A stretch of DNA of 64,000 bases from Sphingobium xanthum. Its GTDB lineage: Bacteria > Pseudomonadota > Alphaproteobacteria > Sphingomonadales > Sphingomonadaceae. This document shows, piece after piece, positions 40,561 through 54,896 of the stretch (position 1 is its first letter; each line of letters starts with the position of its first letter). The stretch is from positions 1 through 64,000 of the forward strand of contig NZ_JAHKKS010000013.1 in the NCBI RefSeq assembly GCF_019737615.1, given 5' to 3'. Below the pieces are notes generated by a model. The model saw nothing but the letters and a program-made list of their open reading frames with translations. It was not told the origin of the DNA and did no database searches. The position numbers were made by a program, and so were the translations under genes.

Positions 40561-41211
40561 TCATTCTATCTTGGCCGCGATTTGTCTCAGGATATGTGCG
40601 AAAACGGCGGCAGGCTGGCCGCCCGAAATAAGATATTGGTCGTTCACGATGATCGCCGGGACGGCATTGATCCCTCGTGACATCGAAACTTCTTCCGACA
40701 TCCGGACATATCGCGAAAATTTCCCTGATTGGAGCACTTCCGCAGCGCCTTCGCGTTCGAGGCCCACGTTTTGCGCGATGTCGGCAAGGACTGCATGGTC
40801 GCTCACGTCGCGCTTTTCGGACAGGTAGGCAGTGAACAGGGCCTGTTTCAATTCCCGTTGTTTGCCCTCGAGCTTCGCCCAATGCAGCAGCCGATGGGCG
40901 TCGAAGGTGTTGTAGAAGCGGTCATCATGGGCGAGCGCGACATCCACGCCGACTTCCTTGGCCCGGTCGCTCAGGCTAGGCTGGTCCGAGGGCAAATGGC
41001 TGGCGGCTTCGCCATATTTTTCCCGGAGATTCTCGCCAACATTCTGGCCCTCCGGCGGAAGGTCGGGGTTAATCTCGAAGGGGTGGAAGATGAGGTCTGC
41101 ATCGACCTCGTCGGCGAGGCTGGCAAGCGCTTCATCCAGGCCCTTCAGGCCGATCGCACAAAACGGACAGGCGATATCGGAAATGAAGTCGATCTTGAGG
41201 TGCTTGGGCAT
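40561..41211 (-). CDS. DsbA-family oxidoreductase (FrnE-like)
   Basis: A 216-residue thioredoxin-fold protein without a signal peptide, so cytoplasmic. The active site CPFC is at residues 15-18 (DIACPFCAIGLKGLDEAL), and the rest follows FrnE-type proteins: FEINPDLPPEGQN, AHRLLHWAKLEGKQRELKQAL and INAVPAIIVNDQYLISGGQPA with the cis-proline. It could act in thiol/disulfide exchange. It is on the same strand as the bufD-bufA1 genes, 85 bases downstream of bufD, so it might belong to that operon, but this is not certain. Confidence 0.85.
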   Translation of the reverse strand: MPKHLKIDFISDIACPFCAIGLKGLDEALASLADEVDADLIFHPFEINPDLPPEGQNVGENLREKYGEAASHLPSDQPSLSDRAKEVGVDVALAHDDRFYNTFDAHRLLHWAKLEGKQRELKQALFTAYLSEKRDVSDHAVLADIAQNVGLEREGAAEVLQSGKFSRYVRMSEEVSMSRGINAVPAIIVNDQYLISGGQPAAVFAHILRQIAAKIE

Positions 41212-41296
41212 GAGATCTCACAGTCCTTCGGCGCCACATCTTCCTCCACTTCGATTAACACGACAAGCCGTTCGGTTTGTTCGGGATAGTGAGCGG

Positions 41297-41734
41297 CTAC
41301 CTGAAGATCGCCCAGTCGAGCGACCAGGCTCCGCCGCCGCGCAGGATAAGGGGAAGCAAAAGTCCCGCCCAACTCAAATGGGTTGCCCATGCATCGGGAT
41401 AGACGAAGATCTCAATGACCGCTGTCATGCCGAGCAAAGCGAGCGCCGCGCCTCGCGTGAACAATCCCAGCACCAGCAGGATCGGGAAGAAATGCTCCGA
41501 GTAGGTCGCGGCATGTGCGGCGATTTCCGGCGGCACCAGCGGCAGCGCATATTCTGTGCGGAATAGCTCATATGTGCCATCCGTAATGTGGAGCAGCCCA
41601 TCCACTTTCGTCCGGCCGGACTGGAAAAAGACGGCTGCGATGCCGAGGCGCGCAACCAGAAGCGGCAGGGCATCAGGCACGCGGGCGGTCAGGCGCTGGA
41701 CGGCGAGAGTGCCGGCCGCAAGGGGCGTTGTCAT
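41297..41734 (-). CDS. bufD: DoxX-family protein of the bufferin locus (BufD-like)
   Basis: 145 residues with four membrane helices: [61 protein letters not shown] (two helices) and [15 protein letters not shown]. The HSEHFFP-like motif and the position directly after a bufferin precursor gene match the DoxX gene of bufferin clusters. Its role is thought to be in the inner membrane, perhaps redox or quinone-linked, but is not proved. It lies 59 bases after bufA1, separated by a strong stem-loop. Confidence 0.82.
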
Positions 41735-41760
41735 AACGAAGATCCTCGAATGGCGCGTTT

Positions 41761-41785
41761 GCCGGGAGGACCAACGCCTCCCGGC
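41761..41785 (-). terminator. GC stem-loop between bufA1 and bufD
   Basis: GCCGGGAGG (41761-41769) pairs perfectly with CCTCCCGGC (41777-41785) around a 7-base loop. There is no T-tract, so it looks more like an attenuator or RNA-stabilising hairpin than a full terminator. It would let the precursor mRNA exceed the downstream mRNA. Confidence 0.6.
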
Positions 41786-41793
41786 CCCCCGCT

Positions 41794-42066
41794 TCAGGCC
41801 TTGGGAGTCAGCGAGCCATTGCCCTTGGGCGTCTTGATGGTCGTGCAGGTGCCGGCCTTGACCAGCTTCCAGGCATTGCCCTGATAATTAACCTTGGAGG
41901 TGCCTGCGCAGCTGGTGCCGGCGCCGGCCTTGCAGTCATTCTTGCCGGCGAGCGACACGCCATAGCATTTCTCCATCGGGGTCTTGTCGGCGGCGGATGC
42001 CGAGGTCGCGGTGGCAGCAATGGCGAGAGCGAGGGTCGCGGCGAGGGTGGCGTGGGTCTTGATCAT
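41794..42066 (-). CDS. bufA1: Bufferin precursor, BufA1/DUF2282 type
   Basis: A 90-residue precursor. The signal peptide (about 1-25, ending TSASAA) exports it to the periplasm. The DUF2282 core has [20 protein letters not shown] and [18 protein letters not shown], with four cysteines at 34, 45, 53 and 74. In characterised bufferins, an MNIO enzyme turns two cysteines into thiooxazoles and the peptide then binds copper. ATG 42066 has an AAGGAGA-like ribosome binding site. It is transcribed leftward from a promoter of the same pattern as the sigma gene and bufA2. Confidence 0.9.
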
Positions 42067-42118
42067 TTTCTGTCTCCTTGAAAGGGGTGTCCGGGCAATC
42101 GCCGGACATGCCCCGGAG

Positions 42119-42144
42119 TTCGCGGAGGGCGACGCGCCGGTTAC
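42119..42144 (-). promoter_or_regulatory. SigF-like promoter for bufA1-bufD
   Basis: Read on the minus strand, GTAACC (42144-42139) is followed after 16 bases by CGAA (42122-42119), about 53 bases before the bufA1 ATG. The pattern equals the one I recall for Caulobacter sigma-F. The same boxes occur at two further promoters in this locus. Confidence 0.68.
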
Positions 42145-42189
42145 GCAGGGCGCTGGACAAATATTTTCATCGTTCGATGCGCCCGACAT

Positions 42190-42214
42190 GTAACCTTCGA
42201 GCGTCAGAGACGAA
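42190..42214 (+). promoter_or_regulatory. SigF-like promoter for sigma/nrsF
   Basis: GTAACC (42190-42195) and CGAA (42211-42214) are separated by 15 bases, 22 bases before the sigma gene start. This suggests positive autoregulation of the sigma factor. The spacer is one base shorter than at the bufferin promoters. Confidence 0.62.
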
Positions 42215-42236
42215 TGCACCTGTCACAGGAGCATGA

Positions 42237-42773
42237 ATGCGGGCGAACGAGGATCAGTTGCGGGCCTGGATGGTGGGAGGACTGGACGGCGTCGCGGCCG
42301 ACCATGCCTGCCTGTTGCGCGCACTCGTGCCCATTCTGTCCGCTTTCTACAGCCGGCGCGTGTTCGCATCGGACGATATCGAGGATCTGGTGCAGGAAAC
42401 GCTTATCGCCGTGCATAGCCGCCGCGCAACCTATGACCGGGATCGCGCCTTCACCGCCTGGCTGTTTTCCATCGCGCGCTACAAGATGATCGATCATTTC
42501 CGCCGCAGCCGCTCCGTCGTGCCCATCGAGGAACTGGAAGACATACTGATGGTCGAAGGCTTCGAGGCCAGCAGCGGTGCACGACTCGACATCGAAGATC
42601 TGCTCGGCACCCTGCCGGCCAAACAAGCGCGGATGATCCGCGCAACACACATAGACGGCGCCACCGTCGCCGAGGCGGCCGCTGCCAGCGGCTATGGCGA
42701 GTCAGACGTGAAGGTCTCGATCCATCGCGGCCTCAAAGCATTGGCGGCGCGCATCCGAGGCAGCGAAACATGA
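42237..42773 (+). CDS. sigF: ECF sigma factor (SigF-like) of the bufferin locus
   Basis: A 178-residue ECF sigma factor. Region 2 is at about 20-95, with DIEDLVQETLIAVHSRRATYDRDRAF in pieces and WLFSIARYKMIDHFRR (region 2.4). Region 4 is at about 120-172, with LGTLPAKQARMIRATHIDG and YGESDVKVSIHRGLKAL. Its stop overlaps the start of the NrsF anti-sigma gene (ATGA). The two flank a bufferin cluster as in Caulobacter, where the sigma controls bufferin expression in response to excess metal. The promoter copies around it fit that role. Confidence 0.88.
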   Translation: MRANEDQLRAWMVGGLDGVAADHACLLRALVPILSAFYSRRVFASDDIEDLVQETLIAVHSRRATYDRDRAFTAWLFSIARYKMIDHFRRSRSVVPIEELEDILMVEGFEASSGARLDIEDLLGTLPAKQARMIRATHIDGATVAEAAAASGYGESDVKVSIHRGLKALAARIRGSET

Positions 42774-43411
42774 ATACCGACCAGCTCATCGACAGTCTCG
42801 CGAGTGACGTGAAGCCGGTTCGCCGGAGCGCGCTTGGCGCGCGGCTCGGGTTCGGCATGCTGATCGGCGCGCTCGTCTCCGCAGCTCTCGTTATCATGCT
42901 CCTTGGCGCACGCCCGGATCTGGCAAGCGCCATGAATGGCTTCGCCTTCTGGATGAAGTGGACCTACACGCTTTCGCTCTCTGCCATCGCGGTCTACGCG
43001 ACGGCGCAGTTGGCGCGACCCAATCCGGGCAATTTGCGGGTTCTCTGGCTGATCGCCATTCCTGTGACCCTTCTTGCGGGCGTGGGCGTGCTGGAACTCG
43101 CGCATACACCGCCGGGCGAATGGCTCGCCATGTGGCTCGGCAGCAGCTGGAGCAAATGTCCCTGGTATGTGTTCGGGCTCGCCATGCCGATCTTCATCGG
43201 GCTGCTCTGGTCGTTCCGCCGGCTGGCGCCGACGCGGCTGCGCGCGGCGGGCGCCGCAGCTGGGCTGGCGGCGGGTGCGTTCGCCGCGACCGTCTATTGC
43301 CTACATTGCCCCGAGGTCTCGGCGATCTTCGTGCTGACCTGGTACACGCTCGGCATATTGCTCGCCGCCAGCCTTGGCGCGCTGGTCGGCCCGCGTCTTT
43401 TGCGCTGGTGA
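42770..43411 (+). CDS. nrsF: NrsF-family anti-sigma factor (DUF1109)
   Basis: A 213-residue inner-membrane protein with six predicted helices, starting inside the sigma stop. DUF1109/NrsF proteins hold an ECF sigma at the membrane until a signal frees it. Visible pieces: IDSLASDVKPVRRSALGARL in the cytoplasmic N-tail, SSWSKCPWYVFGLAMPIFIGLLW and a C-terminal YCLHCPEVSAIFVLTWYTLGI. The two cysteine motifs (KCPW and HCPE) are the likely sensing cysteines of this family. Confidence 0.88.
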   Translation: MNTDQLIDSLASDVKPVRRSALGARLGFGMLIGALVSAALVIMLLGARPDLASAMNGFAFWMKWTYTLSLSAIAVYATAQLARPNPGNLRVLWLIAIPVTLLAGVGVLELAHTPPGEWLAMWLGSSWSKCPWYVFGLAMPIFIGLLWSFRRLAPTRLRAAGAAAGLAAGAFAATVYCLHCPEVSAIFVLTWYTLGILLAASLGALVGPRLLRW

Positions 43412-43412
43412 T

Positions 43413-43438
43413 GTAACCGGCGGCCGCGTTGCTCCGAA
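43413..43438 (+). promoter_or_regulatory. SigF-like promoter for bufA2-bufB-bufC
   Basis: GTAACC (43413-43418) and CGAA (43435-43438) are spaced by 16 bases, 42 bases before the bufA2 ATG. Box sequences and spacing match the bufA1 promoter on the other strand. Confidence 0.7.
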
Positions 43439-43479
43439 CAAGAGATGCCAACCCGGCACAATCATTCGGAGATACCTTC

Positions 43480-43743
43480 ATGAACAGCTTCCGTACCGGC
43501 GTCAGCTTCGCCGCTTCCGCCGCCCTCATCGCCATCAGCGCCGCCGCCGTGCCGACGGCCGCAGTCGCCAAGGGGGCGACCAAGATCCATTGTTACGGCG
43601 TCAACACCTGCAAGGGTACTTCGGACTGCAAGACGTCGAAGCACGACTGCAAGGGCATGAATGACTGCAAGGGCACCGGTTTCAAGGAAATGTCGGTGAA
43701 GCAGTGCTCGGCCGCTGGCGGCACCACGACCGAAGCGAAGTAA
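43480..43743 (+). CDS. bufA2: Bufferin precursor, BufA2-like, six cysteines
   Basis: 87 residues with a signal peptide (about 1-30, ending AAVA). The short mature part is unusually rich in cysteine and lysine, with cysteines at 38, 44, 50, 57, 63 and 76. The first five lie about every six residues in repeated (N/D)xCKG-like units: NTCKGTSDCKTSKHDCKG, then MNDCKGTGFKEM. Position before bufB and bufC and the export signal mark it as a bufferin-type metallophore precursor, but it is different from DUF2282. An AGATACC spacer and CGGAG ribosome binding site precede ATG 43480. Confidence 0.85.
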   Translation: MNSFRTGVSFAASAALIAISAAAVPTAAVAKGATKIHCYGVNTCKGTSDCKTSKHDCKGMNDCKGTGFKEMSVKQCSAAGGTTTEAK

Positions 43744-43754
43744 CCCCCTCGGCT

Positions 43755-43787
43755 CGGCGGGCATCCCCCTCCCGAACCCGCCCGCCG
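43755..43787 (+). terminator. GC stem-loop between bufA2 and bufB
   Basis: CGGCGGGC (43755-43762) pairs with GCCCGCCG (43780-43787) around a 17-base loop; no T-tract follows. It takes the same place as the bufA1/bufD stem-loop and probably reduces or processes transcription into bufB-bufC so that precursor exceeds enzyme. Confidence 0.55.
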
Positions 43788-43816
43788 GGCCACCCTTCTT
43801 CGATGCGAGACCCGCA

Positions 43817-44647
43817 ATGATCCCTTCCTTTGCCGGCTTCGGCCTCGGTTTGCGCAAGCAACATTACGCAGAGTTTCTCGAGCACCGCGTCGCCGTTGAT
43901 TTCGTCGAGGTGATCTCGGAGAATTTCATGGTCGATGGCGGGCGGCCCCGGCGCATCCTGCGGGAGGTGCGCGAGCGCTATCCCGTAGCACTGCATGGCG
44001 TTTCGATGTCCGTCGGTTCGGCAGACGGCGTGGACCGTGCCTATCTCGTGCGGCTTCGCGCGCTCGTCGAAGAGATCGAGCCCCTGTTTGTCTCCGACCA
44101 TCTCTGCTGGACGCAATCTGGCGGCTTTAACTCGCACGACCTGCTCCCGCTGCCCTACACGCAGGAAGCGCTCGATATCGTCTGCGCGAATATTTCCATC
44201 GCCCAGGATGCGCTCGGTCGCGAGATGCTGATCGAGAACCCATCGAGCTACATTTCTTTCGAGAACGACATGATGAGCGAATGGGCCTTTCTCGACGCGG
44301 TCTGCGCGCGCACCGGCTGCGGCCTGTTGCTCGATGTTAACAATGTGTTCGTCAGTGCCACCAACCATGGCTTCGATCCTGTCGCCAATCTGGACGGCGT
44401 CCCACATGAGCGCGTGCGCCAGATCCATCTCGCCGGCCACGCTCAAGGCGAGACTATGCTTATCGACACGCATGACAGTCCGGTGGCCGCTTCGGTGTGG
44501 GATCTCTACCGCCATATCCTGCCACGCCTCGGCCCGGTCGCGACGATGATCGAGCGCGATGACGCCATTCCGCCGCTGCATGAACTGCTTGCCGAACTTG
44601 GCCAGGCGCGCGCGATCAACGCCCAGACCGGTCGCCTGGCGGCATGA
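43817..44647 (+). CDS. bufB: MNIO-family bufferin maturase (DUF692)
   Basis: 276 residues, a TIM-barrel multinuclear iron oxidase. In this family two or three irons oxidise cysteine to a thiooxazole on the precursor peptide. Candidate metal ligands, in order: His 60 (VALHGVSMSVG), Asp 94-His 95 (SDHLCW), Glu 140 (LIENPSSY), Asp 173-Asn 175 (LDVNNVFVSATNHGFD), His 204 and His 208 (HLAGH), and Asp 217 with His 219 (IDTHDSP). It is cytoplasmic and acts before export. Its stop overlaps the bufC start (ATGA). Confidence 0.92.
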   Translation: MIPSFAGFGLGLRKQHYAEFLEHRVAVDFVEVISENFMVDGGRPRRILREVRERYPVALHGVSMSVGSADGVDRAYLVRLRALVEEIEPLFVSDHLCWTQSGGFNSHDLLPLPYTQEALDIVCANISIAQDALGREMLIENPSSYISFENDMMSEWAFLDAVCARTGCGLLLDVNNVFVSATNHGFDPVANLDGVPHERVRQIHLAGHAQGETMLIDTHDSPVAASVWDLYRHILPRLGPVATMIERDDAIPPLHELLAELGQARAINAQTGRLAA

Positions 44648-45393
44648 ACCTCGCCCGGCTCCAGCGCGAATTCAGCACATGGCTGCAGGCGGACAAGCCA
44701 GCCGACGCTGCGCCGTTTGGCGAGCGAGCGCGGCTTGGCCTCGCCATCTATCAGAACAACTTCCGCGCCCAGCTTGCCACCTGTCTGGAAGACAGCTTCG
44801 ACAAGACTCGGCAATGGATCGGCGGCGAGGCGTTTCATGAAGCCATCGTTCACCATGTCGAGCGCGTGCCGCCGAGCAGCTGGACCCTCGACGCCTATCC
44901 CCGCGACTTCCCCGCAACCCTGGCAATGCTCTATCCTATCGACCCTGAAGTCGCGGAACTTGCAGCGCTCGAACTGGCACTGGCGGACGCCTTTGTCGGA
45001 CCAGATGTGAACAGGCTCGCGGCCGAGCAGATCGCGTCGGCAGACTGGGACTGCGTAACTTTGCTCTTTGTACCCATGCTTGATCTCCTCCCGATGACGA
45101 CCAACGCTGCTGCGATCTGGACTGCACTTGCCGAGGAGGCTTCGCCTCCGATGAGTGCATTATTACCAACAGCTGGTGCACTGTTGGTCTGGCGCGACGG
45201 CGAAACACCGCGGTTCCGTGCGATCGAGGCAATGGAGGAGCGCGCGATCCTGCTCATGCGGGGCGGTATGACGTTCGCGCGACTGTGCGCGGACCTTGTC
45301 GAAGACGTCGGCGAAGCCGAGGGCGTGACACTTGCGGGGGCTTGGTTGGGTCAGTGGTTAGCGGACGGTCTGGTCAGCGATCTCATTGACTGA
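44644..45393 (+). CDS. bufC: Bufferin maturation partner (DUF2063, HvfC/BufC type)
   Basis: 249 residues, starting inside the bufB stop. The N-terminal DUF2063 domain (about 1-95) has MNLARLQREFSTWL, GLAIYQNNFRAQLATCLEDSF and WIGGEAFHEAIVHHVERVPPSSWTL in pieces. The C-terminal half is a compact helical region (GMTFARLCADLVEDVG) that may bind the precursor. In related systems this protein is required with the MNIO enzyme for substrate recognition. No DNA-binding or catalytic motif. Confidence 0.9.
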   Translation: MNLARLQREFSTWLQADKPADAAPFGERARLGLAIYQNNFRAQLATCLEDSFDKTRQWIGGEAFHEAIVHHVERVPPSSWTLDAYPRDFPATLAMLYPIDPEVAELAALELALADAFVGPDVNRLAAEQIASADWDCVTLLFVPMLDLLPMTTNAAAIWTALAEEASPPMSALLPTAGALLVWRDGETPRFRAIEAMEERAILLMRGGMTFARLCADLVEDVGEAEGVTLAGAWLGQWLADGLVSDLID

Positions 45394-47561: not shown

Positions 47562-48209
47562 CTACCAACGCAAGATGCGCGGAATGAGCAGGCGCCCAAC
47601 GGCCCCACAAACGGCGACCGGAACAGCGTGCCAGACTCCAAAATGCACGATCGAATTTATGGGGCAATGAAGACCATAGCCGAAAATGCCGATTGCGCCG
47701 GCGGCTATTCCTACCAGCAATCCGGCACGCGCCGGATGCACCGGAGCGCCGCGCCTGAGCCAGGCTATCAGAACGATGGCGGTCAACAGGCCTGCGCATG
47801 TCCCGACCAAGGCGCAGACCGTGTCATCCAAGCCAAAATATATCCGTGATGCTGGCCAGTCGCGGCTAGCCGTTACGACTGCAGCAAGCGGGAGAAGGCC
47901 CGCCATGGCCAGAGCCCACTTCCAGCCCTCGTGCTGATTCCCGACCTGAGGGCTGGCCATGCCGACCGCAGTCGACGCTGCTGCCAGCGCGAGAACAAGA
48001 AGCACGCCGTTCGAGACGATGAAGTTGATCGACAACAAGCCAGCCAACAGATCCGGTCGCAGGCCCGTGGCGGCTGCAACGATTGCTACGTTGATCGTTG
48101 CAGCCCCCATGACGCGAACCATACCCTTACGGAACGTCATTGGTGACACAGGCTTGAGGCCTGCGGCCAGGTTTTCGATCAGTCGATCCGTATCGGGGCT
48201 TACTGTCAT
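47562..48209 (-). CDS. NrsF-family anti-sigma factor (DUF1109), second copy
   Basis: A 215-residue membrane protein with six helices. Features shared with the other copy: an N-tail IENLAAGLKPVSPMTFRKGMVRVM, then FGLDDTVCALVGTCAGLLTAIVLIAWL (in parts) and GYGLHCPINSIVHFGVWHAVPVAV with the conserved HCP. It overlaps the ECF sigma stop by four bases. It presumably sequesters that sigma at the membrane. The 3' side (47338-47561) has no gene. Confidence 0.87.
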   Translation of the reverse strand: MTVSPDTDRLIENLAAGLKPVSPMTFRKGMVRVMGAATINVAIVAAATGLRPDLLAGLLSINFIVSNGVLLVLALAAASTAVGMASPQVGNQHEGWKWALAMAGLLPLAAVVTASRDWPASRIYFGLDDTVCALVGTCAGLLTAIVLIAWLRRGAPVHPARAGLLVGIAAGAIGIFGYGLHCPINSIVHFGVWHAVPVAVCGAVGRLLIPRILRW

Positions 48210-48733
48210 TGTGCTTTCTCGATCAGGGCAGTCAGTTTTTTCAAACCTCGATGAATGTTCACCTTGACCAGTGACTCGCTCTGCCCGCTGATCCTCGCCG
48301 CCTCGGTGACGCTTCGGCCGTCAATCTTGACCAGTATGATCGCTCGAGACTGGGCAACCGGGAGTTCCGCCAGCAGACGGTCAAGGCTGACCCTCGCCAT
48401 GACATCATCCTCGATCGAACCGTCATCGACCTGCTCCGCGATTTTCAGATCCTGAGCGCGGTAGGCCCGGCTGAGATGATCGACCCAGCGATAGCGGGCG
48501 ATGGCCGCGAGCCAAGGCAGAAAAGGCCTTGCGGGATCGTAGCTAGCCAGTTTGCTATGGAGTGACAGCAGTGTGTCCTGCACAAGATCGTCGATCTGCT
48601 GCGGCGGCAGCCGCCGATAATAATATCGGCGCAACCACTTGGCGCATTCCTTCAACAGCGCCGCATAGGTCGATGCATCACCGCCCTGCGCCTGCTTCAT
48701 GAGACGGGCCAAGGACGCCTCGTCGGCAATCAT
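48206..48733 (-). CDS. ECF sigma factor paired with second NrsF
   Basis: 175 residues. Region 2 has QQIDDLVQDTLLSLHSKLASYDP and WLAAIARYRWVDHLSRAYR; region 4 has LAELPVAQSRAIILVKIDGRS and SGQSESLVKVNIHRGLKKL. It is clearly related to the sigma at 42237 but distinct. No GTAACC/CGAA promoter was found before it, so its own promoter pattern differs or it is driven by another sigma. A nearby candidate target is the spondin-type PEP-CTERM gene at 48882-49688. Confidence 0.88.
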   Translation of the reverse strand: MIADEASLARLMKQAQGGDASTYAALLKECAKWLRRYYYRRLPPQQIDDLVQDTLLSLHSKLASYDPARPFLPWLAAIARYRWVDHLSRAYRAQDLKIAEQVDDGSIEDDVMARVSLDRLLAELPVAQSRAIILVKIDGRSVTEAARISGQSESLVKVNIHRGLKKLTALIEKAQ

Positions 48734-48881: not shown

Positions 48882-49688
48882 TCAGGCCAGGACTGCGGCG
48901 GCCCTGCGATGGCGCAGCGCACTTCCCGCGAGTGCGAAACCGCCGATCATCATAGCCCAGGTCGCAGGCTCAGGCACTGCATTCGCCGTGAAGCTGATCC
49001 GATAGATCGGCGTCGAGTCAGAGAGGCCGGCATCGCTGAACGTATATCCGGCCGCTGTGGTCAGCCCGTTGAAGACTGCGAGTTCTGAACGATCGAAAGC
49101 AACCGTGCCATTCTCAGGCGTGCGCAAATCATTATTGCCGCCGACGACAAAAGCGGCATTCGCCGGATCGGCGACTTCGGAATTGGCATCCCAGATCCGG
49201 TTCGCAGTGAGGGTAATCTGGTTGATCAGCAGATTGCCGGCCATATCGAATATCTGAAACATCGCGGGATTGTCGTTGCCAATGAAAAGGTCGTTGCTCG
49301 GAATGACCATGCTGGCGAATGTGAAGTAGCGATTGATTGTCGAATCGACCAGGAGGGGCGAACTCATATGGGAGGCTCCCGGGGTCAGAGCACCACCGAT
49401 CGTCGAAATGACGGCCGTTGGATCGGCAGAAGCGAACGCCGGCAGCCAGGCCGATCCCGAGCCTCCCTCGGCGATGGAAATGATCGCTGCGCCGCCGACG
49501 CTTCCGGAATTGAAAGCGTCGAACGTCCCGTTGTGAATGCCGAAATGAAGCGGGGCGAAAGATACGCTGTTCGTCGGCGCGAGATTTTCGACTTTCACCG
49601 TCAGTTTTACATTTTGAGCATTCGCCCCGGTGCCGGCCACGAGCAGGCCAGCTCCCATCAGTGCCGCTAAAGATATAAATCTACGCAT
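48882..49688 (-). CDS. Spondin-domain PEP-CTERM exported protein
   Basis: 268 residues from ATG 49688. A signal peptide (MRRFISLAALMGAGLLVAGTGANA) is followed by a spondin_N-like domain (about 27-225: VKLTVKVENLAPTNSVSFAPL, HFGIHNGTFDAF, FTFASMVIPSNDLFIGND). At the end is the PEP-CTERM sorting tail, VPEPATWAMMIGGFALAGS then LRHRR, used for cell-envelope or exopolysaccharide-linked surface display. It lies 148 bases upstream of the second ECF sigma operon on the same strand and may be its target. A GTAACC box with AGAA after 16 bases (49757-49732, minus) sits upstream. Confidence 0.85.
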   Translation of the reverse strand: MRRFISLAALMGAGLLVAGTGANAQNVKLTVKVENLAPTNSVSFAPLHFGIHNGTFDAFNSGSVGGAAIISIAEGGSGSAWLPAFASADPTAVISTIGGALTPGASHMSSPLLVDSTINRYFTFASMVIPSNDLFIGNDNPAMFQIFDMAGNLLINQITLTANRIWDANSEVADPANAAFVVGGNNDLRTPENGTVAFDRSELAVFNGLTTAAGYTFSDAGLSDSTPIYRISFTANAVPEPATWAMMIGGFALAGSALRHRRAAAVLA

Positions 49689-50090
49689 CTCCACTCTCCC
49701 ATGATCTCGGCGATCAATCGCCGGGAGCAGGTTCTCGCGACAGGCCTTGTTGGTTACAGAGGCTGCGGGTCGCAGCGCCTTTCTGCATGTCCGACCACGC
49801 CCGCTATACAATTGCCGCGGTTAAACCCGACGAAAAATGGTCAGTTCAGGCTGGACCTTTCAAGGCGAAGCCGCGAGCGAGCTTCACAGATAGGTGCCGC
49901 GACTATTCTGGCATAAGAAGGGCAAGATCTCGCCGTGGTGGCTTCAATGATGAGTGCACCGGCTTCGCGACTGTGCCGCTCATCTTTGCATTGGCAACCC
50001 GCTGCCGCCAACAAAGCGGCCGCTCCCGCCGCTCGAAAGCGGCTTCGCAACCTGCCGTCCGTTCATGGCACGGCGGCAGGCGATCGGACA
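49689..50090. other. Intergenic region between PEP-CTERM gene and TetR operator
   Basis: No credible gene. It contains the GTAACC-like box at 49752-49757 (minus) that may serve the spondin gene. The rest up to 50090 shows no repeats I could find; the large TetR palindrome begins immediately after. Confidence 0.45.
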
Positions 50091-53451: not shown

Positions 53452-53910
53452 TCATGAACAAAGGTCGCCGATCTCGCGTTCGACGAGCCGGAAACGCTCC
53501 TTGATCTCCTCACCCGCGTAAAAAGCGAGCATGTCTTCTTTAGTGAGAGTTCCCTCGGCGAGGAACTTGATGAGATAGCGCTGATTGAATTCGGCGAGGA
53601 GGATGCTTTTCTCGATCTGCGCGAGAATCTGCTTCATATTGTCGATATTGGCAGTGATGAGAGTCTTCACCAGCGCCATGTCGCGGGCATCCTTGATCAG
53701 TCGATTGACGATGATCTTGAGCACGTCGGTGTCGAGCTCCATCGTCTTCGCATTGAGAGCGATGTCGCGCGCGAGCATGTAGGCGATGGCAAGGTTGCGA
53801 TAATCACCCTTCTGGGAATCGATGATCGCGATCAGACCGACACCGGGCAAAAACTTCAGATCCTGCACCGCAACCAGGATGCTGTTATCGACGAGCGAGG
53901 CGTCGAACAC
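53452..53910 (-). pseudogene. 5'-truncated gene fused to integrase remnant, function unknown
   Basis: 152 residues, helical, no recognised domain (DLKFLPGVGLIAIIDSQKGDY; IAYMLARDIALNAKTM). The annotated GTG at 53910 is only nominal: the frame stays open upstream to about 53970 as FDRPTDERELLEAQANRDGQ then AGIIVFDAS, overlapping the end of the integrase in another frame. So an older gene lost its start when the integrase was cut. Codon and residue use look genuine. Confidence 0.55.
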
Positions 53911-54896
53911 GATGATCCCGGCTTGGCCGTCGCGATTAGCCTGCGCTTCCAGGAGTTCTCGCTCATCGGTCGGGCGGTCGAACGAATGGAAGGGAAGATG
54001 AGACCTGCGGGACCGACCCGAAGTTCATGCAGCCGCTGAAGGATTTCGATCGCCTGCCGCGACAGCGGCACGTGATGCGGTCGACGCATTTTCATCCGCG
54101 TGGCCGGGACGGACCAGACCGCTGCGGCGAAATCGATCTCGTCCCAAGTCGACATGCGCAGTTCGCCGGGACGCAAAAAGACGTGCGGCGAGAGCTGCAG
54201 GGCATATTTGGTCAGATAATTGCCTTCATAACCGTCGATCGCGCGAAGCAACGCCCCCACCCCCTTCGAATCGACGATCGCCGCAAGATGCTTGGATCGC
54301 GGCGCTGTGATGGCCCCGCGAAGATCGCGCGTCGGATCAGCTTCGAGCCGCGCGGTCGCAACCGCGTAGCGAAACACATTGCCGGCCAGCTGCAGGAGAC
54401 GTCGTGCTGTCTCGAGATTGCCCTTGGCTTCGACGCGGCGCAGGATCGCCAACACATCGGCGGGCCGAATCTCCGAGACCGGAAACTTGCCGATGTTGCC
54501 GTCGAAATGCTCGAGCAGCCAGTTCGCCTTGGCGATGGTGGATGCGGACCAGCCTTCGCGTGTCCGCTTCGCAACGAACTCCTTCGCGACATCCCCGAAC
54601 TTGGAGCTGACGCTCGACTTTGCCAGCGACTTTGCCCGCTGCTTTTCCAGTGAGGGGTCGGCGCCGGTAACAAGCAACCTGCGAGCCACGTCCCGTGCAG
54701 ATCGCGCCGCGGCGAGGCTGACCTCGGGATATGTGCCGATGCCGAGCTTCTTCTCCTTGCCGTCCACGCGGTATTTGAGCCGCCAGAGCTTCCCGCCGCT
54801 TGGCTGCACCAGAAGAAAAAGGCCCCCAGTATCGCCCATTTTATAGGGCTTTTCGCGTGGCTTCGCTTTCCGAACAGAGACATCCGTTAATGCCAT
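53856..54896 (-). CDS. P4-type tyrosine integrase, C-terminally truncated
   Basis: 346 residues against about 400 in intact members. DUF4102-type N-terminus: MALTDVSVRKAKPREKPYKMGDTGG and LWRLKYRVDGKEKKLGIGTYPEVSLAAARSAR (two parts). Core-binding helices follow at about 90-200. The catalytic domain keeps the first arginine (FLRPGELRMSTWDEI) and the HHVPLS segment, but the HxxR and final tyrosine box are gone; after MSEN (about 53960) the frame runs into unrelated sequence. It lies 174 bases from the tRNA-Phe 3' end, oriented away from it. Likely inactive. Confidence 0.9.
   Translation of the reverse strand: MALTDVSVRKAKPREKPYKMGDTGGLFLLVQPSGGKLWRLKYRVDGKEKKLGIGTYPEVSLAAARSARDVARRLLVTGADPSLEKQRAKSLAKSSVSSKFGDVAKEFVAKRTREGWSASTIAKANWLLEHFDGNIGKFPVSEIRPADVLAILRRVEAKGNLETARRLLQLAGNVFRYAVATARLEADPTRDLRGAITAPRSKHLAAIVDSKGVGALLRAIDGYEGNYLTKYALQLSPHVFLRPGELRMSTWDEIDFAAAVWSVPATRMKMRRPHHVPLSRQAIEILQRLHELRVGPAGLIFPSIRSTARPMSENSWKRRLIATAKPGSSCSTPRSSITASWLRCRI

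Follow-up and report, generated by a model that had tools for sequence, protein, structure and literature searches.

A dual-precursor bufferin locus with a single BufB/BufC pair and SigF-type promoters in Sphingobium xanthum

Described bufferin systems and the Sphingobium xanthum locus

The closest described counterparts of the bufferin locus analyzed here are the Buf1 and Buf2 operons of Caulobacter vibrioides/crescentus (CC3254-57 and CC2907-05; PMC3511200, PMC8224329). The locus lies within the first 64,000 nucleotides of contig NZ_JAHKKS010000013.1 of Sphingobium xanthum (assembly GCF_019737615.1), a stretch referred to here as the window, and shares with Caulobacter the precursor families, the MNIO maturase with its DUF2063 partner, DoxX, SigF/NrsF, and the promoter motif. 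In both organisms a single sigma factor appears to drive both precursor types. In Caulobacter, however, the precursors lie in separate operons with a BufB/BufC pair in each, whereas the window holds one locus in which two precursors are accompanied by one pair.

Other known systems resemble the locus in part. The Pep4 cluster of the Pseudomonas fluorescens group, listed without interpretation (PMC8719888), likewise combines a DUF2282 peptide, DoxX, a domainless short peptide, DUF692, and DUF2063, but it occupies one strand, has a hydrolase in between, and is listed with no sigma/NrsF genes; apparently, it is a collinear form of the cluster in the window. A recent landscape of the family (PMC12452194) includes tandem-precursor clusters and genomes with several precursors and one MNIO/PME1 pair, as in the window, and proposes sharing as a possibility, although neither a lineage combining Buf1 and Buf2, nor a divergent form, nor natural experiments with a single maturase appear in its main text. 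The captophorins fontiphorin, oxazolin, and gonophorin also depend on MNIO and PME1 pairs, which install 5-thiooxazoles on Cys-rich, copper-binding peptides, but they differ in their EGKCG-repeat precursors and Lys-Cys type active site (PMC13097082). We found no description of a dual-precursor lineage or of the divergent sphingomonad form in the literature, covered mostly as open-access main texts, and the form may be drawn in supplements or figures.

In our view the locus is probably a dual-precursor bufferin cluster, switched by SigF, in which one BufB/BufC pair matures both precursors for periplasmic copper sequestration. Metal stress, most likely by copper, would release SigF from the membrane anti-sigma factor NrsF, and SigF would then fire three promoter copies, namely those of its own operon, of bufA1-doxX leftward, and of bufA2-bufB-bufC rightward. 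By analogy with published relatives, from which the thiooxazole chemistry is taken, a single BufB/BufC complex would convert Cys residues of both precursors into 5-thiooxazoles in the cytoplasm, the candidate residues being the two central Cys of BufA1 and probably the Cys-Lys cysteines of BufA2. Both peptides, with signal-peptide-like N termini, would be exported by Sec and, by the same analogy, sequester copper in the periplasm.

The genes themselves bear out the initial annotation, which had placed two unlike precursor genes on opposite strands, each with part of the machinery, and a sigma/NrsF pair between them; all domain-bearing genes of the locus score above the Pfam cutoff. On the forward strand, bufA2 (43480-43743) encodes an 87-amino-acid precursor without a Pfam family and with several Cys-Lys pairs. 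Its assignment as Buf2 type reflects its six Cys in the Buf2 pattern and its position directly upstream of bufB-bufC. After a gap of 73 bp follows the MNIO gene bufB (MbnB_TglH_ChrH family; 43817-44647; PF05114, E 3.4e-111), which carries an ERDD active-site motif of the Cys-Lys type, and then bufC (44644-45393; PF09836, E 1.8e-16), encoding a PME-type-1 partner with a DUF2063 and an RRE-like domain, so that the maturase and the partner protein expected of a bufferin cluster are both present. On the reverse strand, bufA1 (41794-42066; PF10048, E 6.4e-24) encodes a DUF2282 precursor of 90 amino acids from its ATG with the four conserved Cys of Buf1, an alternative GTG start giving a longer open reading frame (41794-42219). 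The DoxX-family membrane protein gene doxX (41297-41734; PF07681, E 5.9e-18) lies 59 bp downstream. The Buf1-type order bufA-bufB-bufC(-doxX) on one strand is thus not seen, as bufA1-doxX diverges from bufB-bufC. Between the precursor genes, on the forward strand, are sigF (42237-42773; PF04542 and PF08281), encoding an extracytoplasmic function (ECF) sigma factor, and nrsF (42770-43411; PF06532, E 1.5e-73), encoding the membrane anti-sigma factor. The overlaps of sigF with nrsF and of bufB with bufC are 4 bp each. Judged by eye, the N termini of BufA1 and BufA2 each show a short basic start, a hydrophobic stretch, and an AxA-like site.

Conservation of the gene set and the BufB lineage

Judged from sequence and gene order, the genes of the locus have been kept together as a set through changes of orientation in the Alpha-, Beta-, and Gammaproteobacteria. 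Among 201 genomes of the family of the window, DUF2282 proteins occur in 68, MNIO proteins in 72, and both in 66 (Fisher p 3e-43), and 100 loci from the DUF2282/MNIO searches were annotated. The common arrangements are the divergent form of the window, with doxX-bufA1 to the left and sigF-nrsF-bufA2-bufB-bufC to the right, and a second divergent form with sigF-nrsF downstream of doxX; canonical bufA1-bufB-bufC-doxX operons are also found. A divergent locus with both precursors is present in 33 family genomes (hand tally). The arrangement of the window recurs in 41 of 80 named nearest relatives (Sphingomonas, Sphingobium, Novosphingobium, and related genera) and the second divergent form in 3, while 28 carry both precursors on the bufB-bufC strand, mostly as bufA1-doxX-bufA2-bufB-bufC. 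These collinear carriers belong to Cupriavidus, Burkholderia, Caballeronia, Pseudomonas, Dyella, Luteibacter, Duganella, Massilia, and Undibacterium and include one uncultured Caulobacter. Some named records are the same strains as genomes of the family survey (e.g., L119/L231 and L114/L228), and the two counts are not additive. In nearly all split relatives doxX adjoins bufA1, and bufA2-type genes were recovered at the equivalent position with a profile built in this analysis.

Conservation in dozens of species led us to reject chance or a recent rearrangement as the origin of the locus. The initial annotation had described a split pair of half-operons departing from the usual bufABCD operon. 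This description does not hold: SigF promoters are common to the two arms, and the genes recur together, collinear in many species and divergent in sphingomonads; the locus is not a broken bufABCD operon.

A tree of BufB proteins (174 rows, quick method) groups those of Buf1-only operons (65 rows), those of Buf2-only operons (20 rows), and a clade of 73 rows (SH-aLRT 99) that includes the BufB of the window together with those of collinear loci. By hand count, both precursors are found in 60 of the loci in this clade, bufA2 without bufA1 in 7, and bufA1 without bufA2 in 6, and a smaller, more careful tree agrees for the sphingomonads. The BufBs of dual-precursor loci form a lineage of their own in these sequence comparisons. 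It seems rather likely that this distinct and ancient MNIO lineage has dual specificity, for DUF2282 peptides and for Cys-Lys six-Cys peptides from one locus, and defines a third, dual-precursor class of bufferin across the Alpha-, Beta-, and Gammaproteobacteria that is SigF controlled in sphingomonads.

Shared use of one BufB/BufC pair

BufB aligns with the Protein Data Bank relatives 3BWW, MbnB, and TglH, and the alignment with 3BWW shares the motifs HG, SDHL, EN, LDVNN, NHG, IHxAGH, DTH, and ERD. The AlphaFold2 model of BufC (predicted local distance difference test score, 93.8) matches 3DEE (NGO1945; E 3.3e-6) and TglI (E 2.9e-5) and, weakly, lasso-peptide recognition elements; the modeled fold is that expected for a PME-type-1 partner, combining a DUF2063 and an RRE fold.

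Relatives of the window provide natural experiments on sharing. In one genus (g44; L110, L115, and L123), a BufB of the lineage of the window stands opposite bufA1 while bufA2 is gone, and an overlooked bufA2 was rejected, as the translated intergenic regions contain no Cys-rich open reading frame. In L118, a BufB of this lineage lies behind two tandem Buf1 genes. The residue contacting the substrate Lys in Cys-Lys MNIOs (BufB2-Asp251; PMC13097082) is an Asp in the BufB of the window (ERDD; position assigned by motif). The same Asp is found in 77 of 81 split loci; the residue is Glu, Glu, and Asp in the three g44 loci and Asn in L118. BufBs of the Buf1 type have Asn or Thr here. Among split-locus bufA1 genes, 79 of 80 keep all four Cys, counted on whole open reading frames, and the remaining one is truncated at a contig end. 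Two genomes of one genus without an MNIO (g54; L163 in G053 and L164 in G130) encode lipoprotein-like DUF2282 proteins that have kept the outer two Cys and lost exactly the inner two, which are the published modification targets. In the BufA1 of the window, the first central Cys (the second Cys, at about 41930) is followed by Lys, as in 45 of 79 split loci versus 4 of 55 scored canonical ones; this Cys-Lys matches the Cys-Lys preference of its BufB and may be only a lineage trait. Stand-alone four-Cys DUF2282 genes were also observed (L166 to L174), far from an MNIO gene carried elsewhere in the genome; most of them encode lipoprotein-like signals, and several have a SigF-type promoter.

Some observations weigh against sharing, and they bear mainly on the alternative that BufB and BufC modify BufA2 alone, while BufA1 acts with DoxX in the periplasm as a thiol or copper peptide that bears disulfides but no modification. 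The active-site Asp of BufB is of the Cys-Lys (Buf2) type, so that BufB could favor BufA2 or act on it alone, and unmodified precursors are considered possible in the literature (PMC12452194). The g44 genomes hold a second DUF2282 protein elsewhere. Two MNIO-less drafts of one other family, G400 (92% complete) and G568 (77%), retain a DUF2282 protein with all four Cys. Cys conservation alone is therefore no proof of modification, and the argument from Cys loss rests on one genus, as the only MNIO-less controls elsewhere keep their four Cys. We nevertheless regard modification of BufA2 alone as unlikely, because g44 and L118 keep a BufB of this lineage beside Buf1 precursors only, because the MNIO-less g54 pair lost precisely the two central Cys, and because bufA1 stays beside such a BufB across classes.

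It is far less probable that BufA1 is matured by another enzyme, whose gene would lie elsewhere in the genome or on a replicon that the assembly lacks. The initial annotation had regarded a second, dedicated DUF692/DUF2063 pair as incompatible with sharing, and a genome-wide search found no such pair: the 4.06-Mb assembly, with a completeness of 100%, contains a single protein each of the MNIO, DUF2063, and DUF2282 families, although as a draft of 24 contigs it does not make the absence of further maturase genes absolute. Nothing positive favors another maturase beyond the fact that a second MNIO elsewhere does occur in 8 of the 33 split-locus family genomes. In the other 25 the BufB of the locus is the sole MNIO, and 23 of these, all carrying both precursors, are at least 90% complete. 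Similarly improbable is a bufA1-doxX arm that is a decaying remnant, no longer of consequence, of a former double locus whose own BufB1 and BufC1 were lost. Such a double divergent locus, in which BufB and BufC are encoded in both arms, does exist in one genus (g22; L121 in G021, and L112 with L156 in G169), where it could possibly be an ancestor or a secondary gain. Decay, however, fits poorly with the four Cys, the doxX gene, and usually the SigF promoter kept by all complete split bufA1 genes, and the collinear forms of other classes hold bufA1-doxX in the unit without a second BufB.

Shared use of one BufB/BufC pair by both precursors is therefore supported but not proven. The initial annotation had proposed that both precursors use the single pair; the absence of a second pair from the genome and the comparative evidence support that proposal, while the modification itself we infer.

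SigF-type promoters, genomic surroundings, and significance

The C. crescentus sigma-F motif, GTAACC-N16-CGAA, precedes both bufferin operons driven by SigF in that organism (PMC3511200), where copper induces the SigF regulon and mutation of sigF confers copper sensitivity (PMC8224329). A search of the window for exact GTAACC-N15-17-CGAA, for which 0.11 matches are expected by chance, returned three matches at the locus and a fourth far away (24878). Those at the locus precede bufA1-doxX (42119-42144, reverse strand, N16), sigF-nrsF (42190-42214, forward strand, N15), and bufA2-bufB-bufC (43413-43438, forward strand, N16), and both "half-operons" therefore form one SigF regulon. In 101 annotated loci (the 100 family loci and the window), the motif has 125 matches and the reversed pattern 5. 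In the whole genome, by comparison, 13 exact sites stand against 36 for the reversed pattern, and consequently only the three at the locus look meaningful. A wider regulon was rejected, as the ten sites outside the locus have no recognizable regulon genes behind them and look like chance. On sequence grounds, the ECF sigma factor, NrsF, and the promoters at the predicted target genes together constitute a SigF/NrsF regulon, and its logic, by homology with Caulobacter, is well supported.

The landscape study reports sigma/NrsF genes for clusters of the Buf1 type but not for those of the Buf2 type (PMC12452194). In the window, sigF-nrsF lies directly upstream of bufA2, and in three further loci (L091, L098, and L114) it lies beside a Buf2 operon without bufA1 nearby.

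A second ECF sigma/NrsF pair (47562-48733, reverse strand), 2 kb past the locus, adjoins a PEP-CTERM protein gene (48882-49811). It was rejected as a bufferin regulator given this neighbor and the lack of GTAACC-N-CGAA upstream, and it probably belongs to a different regulon. On the other side, a DsbA-family (FrnE-like) gene (40561-41211, reverse strand) lies 86 bp downstream of doxX; its absence at this place in annotated relatives led us to reject it as a cluster member. A phage-type integrase gene with arm DNA-binding and catalytic domains (53856-54896, reverse strand), about 8 kb from the locus, possibly marks a mobile element. As two genomes of the same genus (G078 and G146) are without the locus and other sphingomonads carry similar loci on large replicons that are listed as plasmids, the locus may move horizontally.

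How, and whether, one MNIO/partner pair processes several unlike precursors is a question left open in the 2025 landscape paper (PMC12452194). The arrangement described here appears to be an old and widely conserved variant of known bufferin clusters, and it makes the question of a shared maturase testable by offering a single-maturase genome, relatives in which one substrate or the enzyme was lost, and a putative specificity residue that changes in step.

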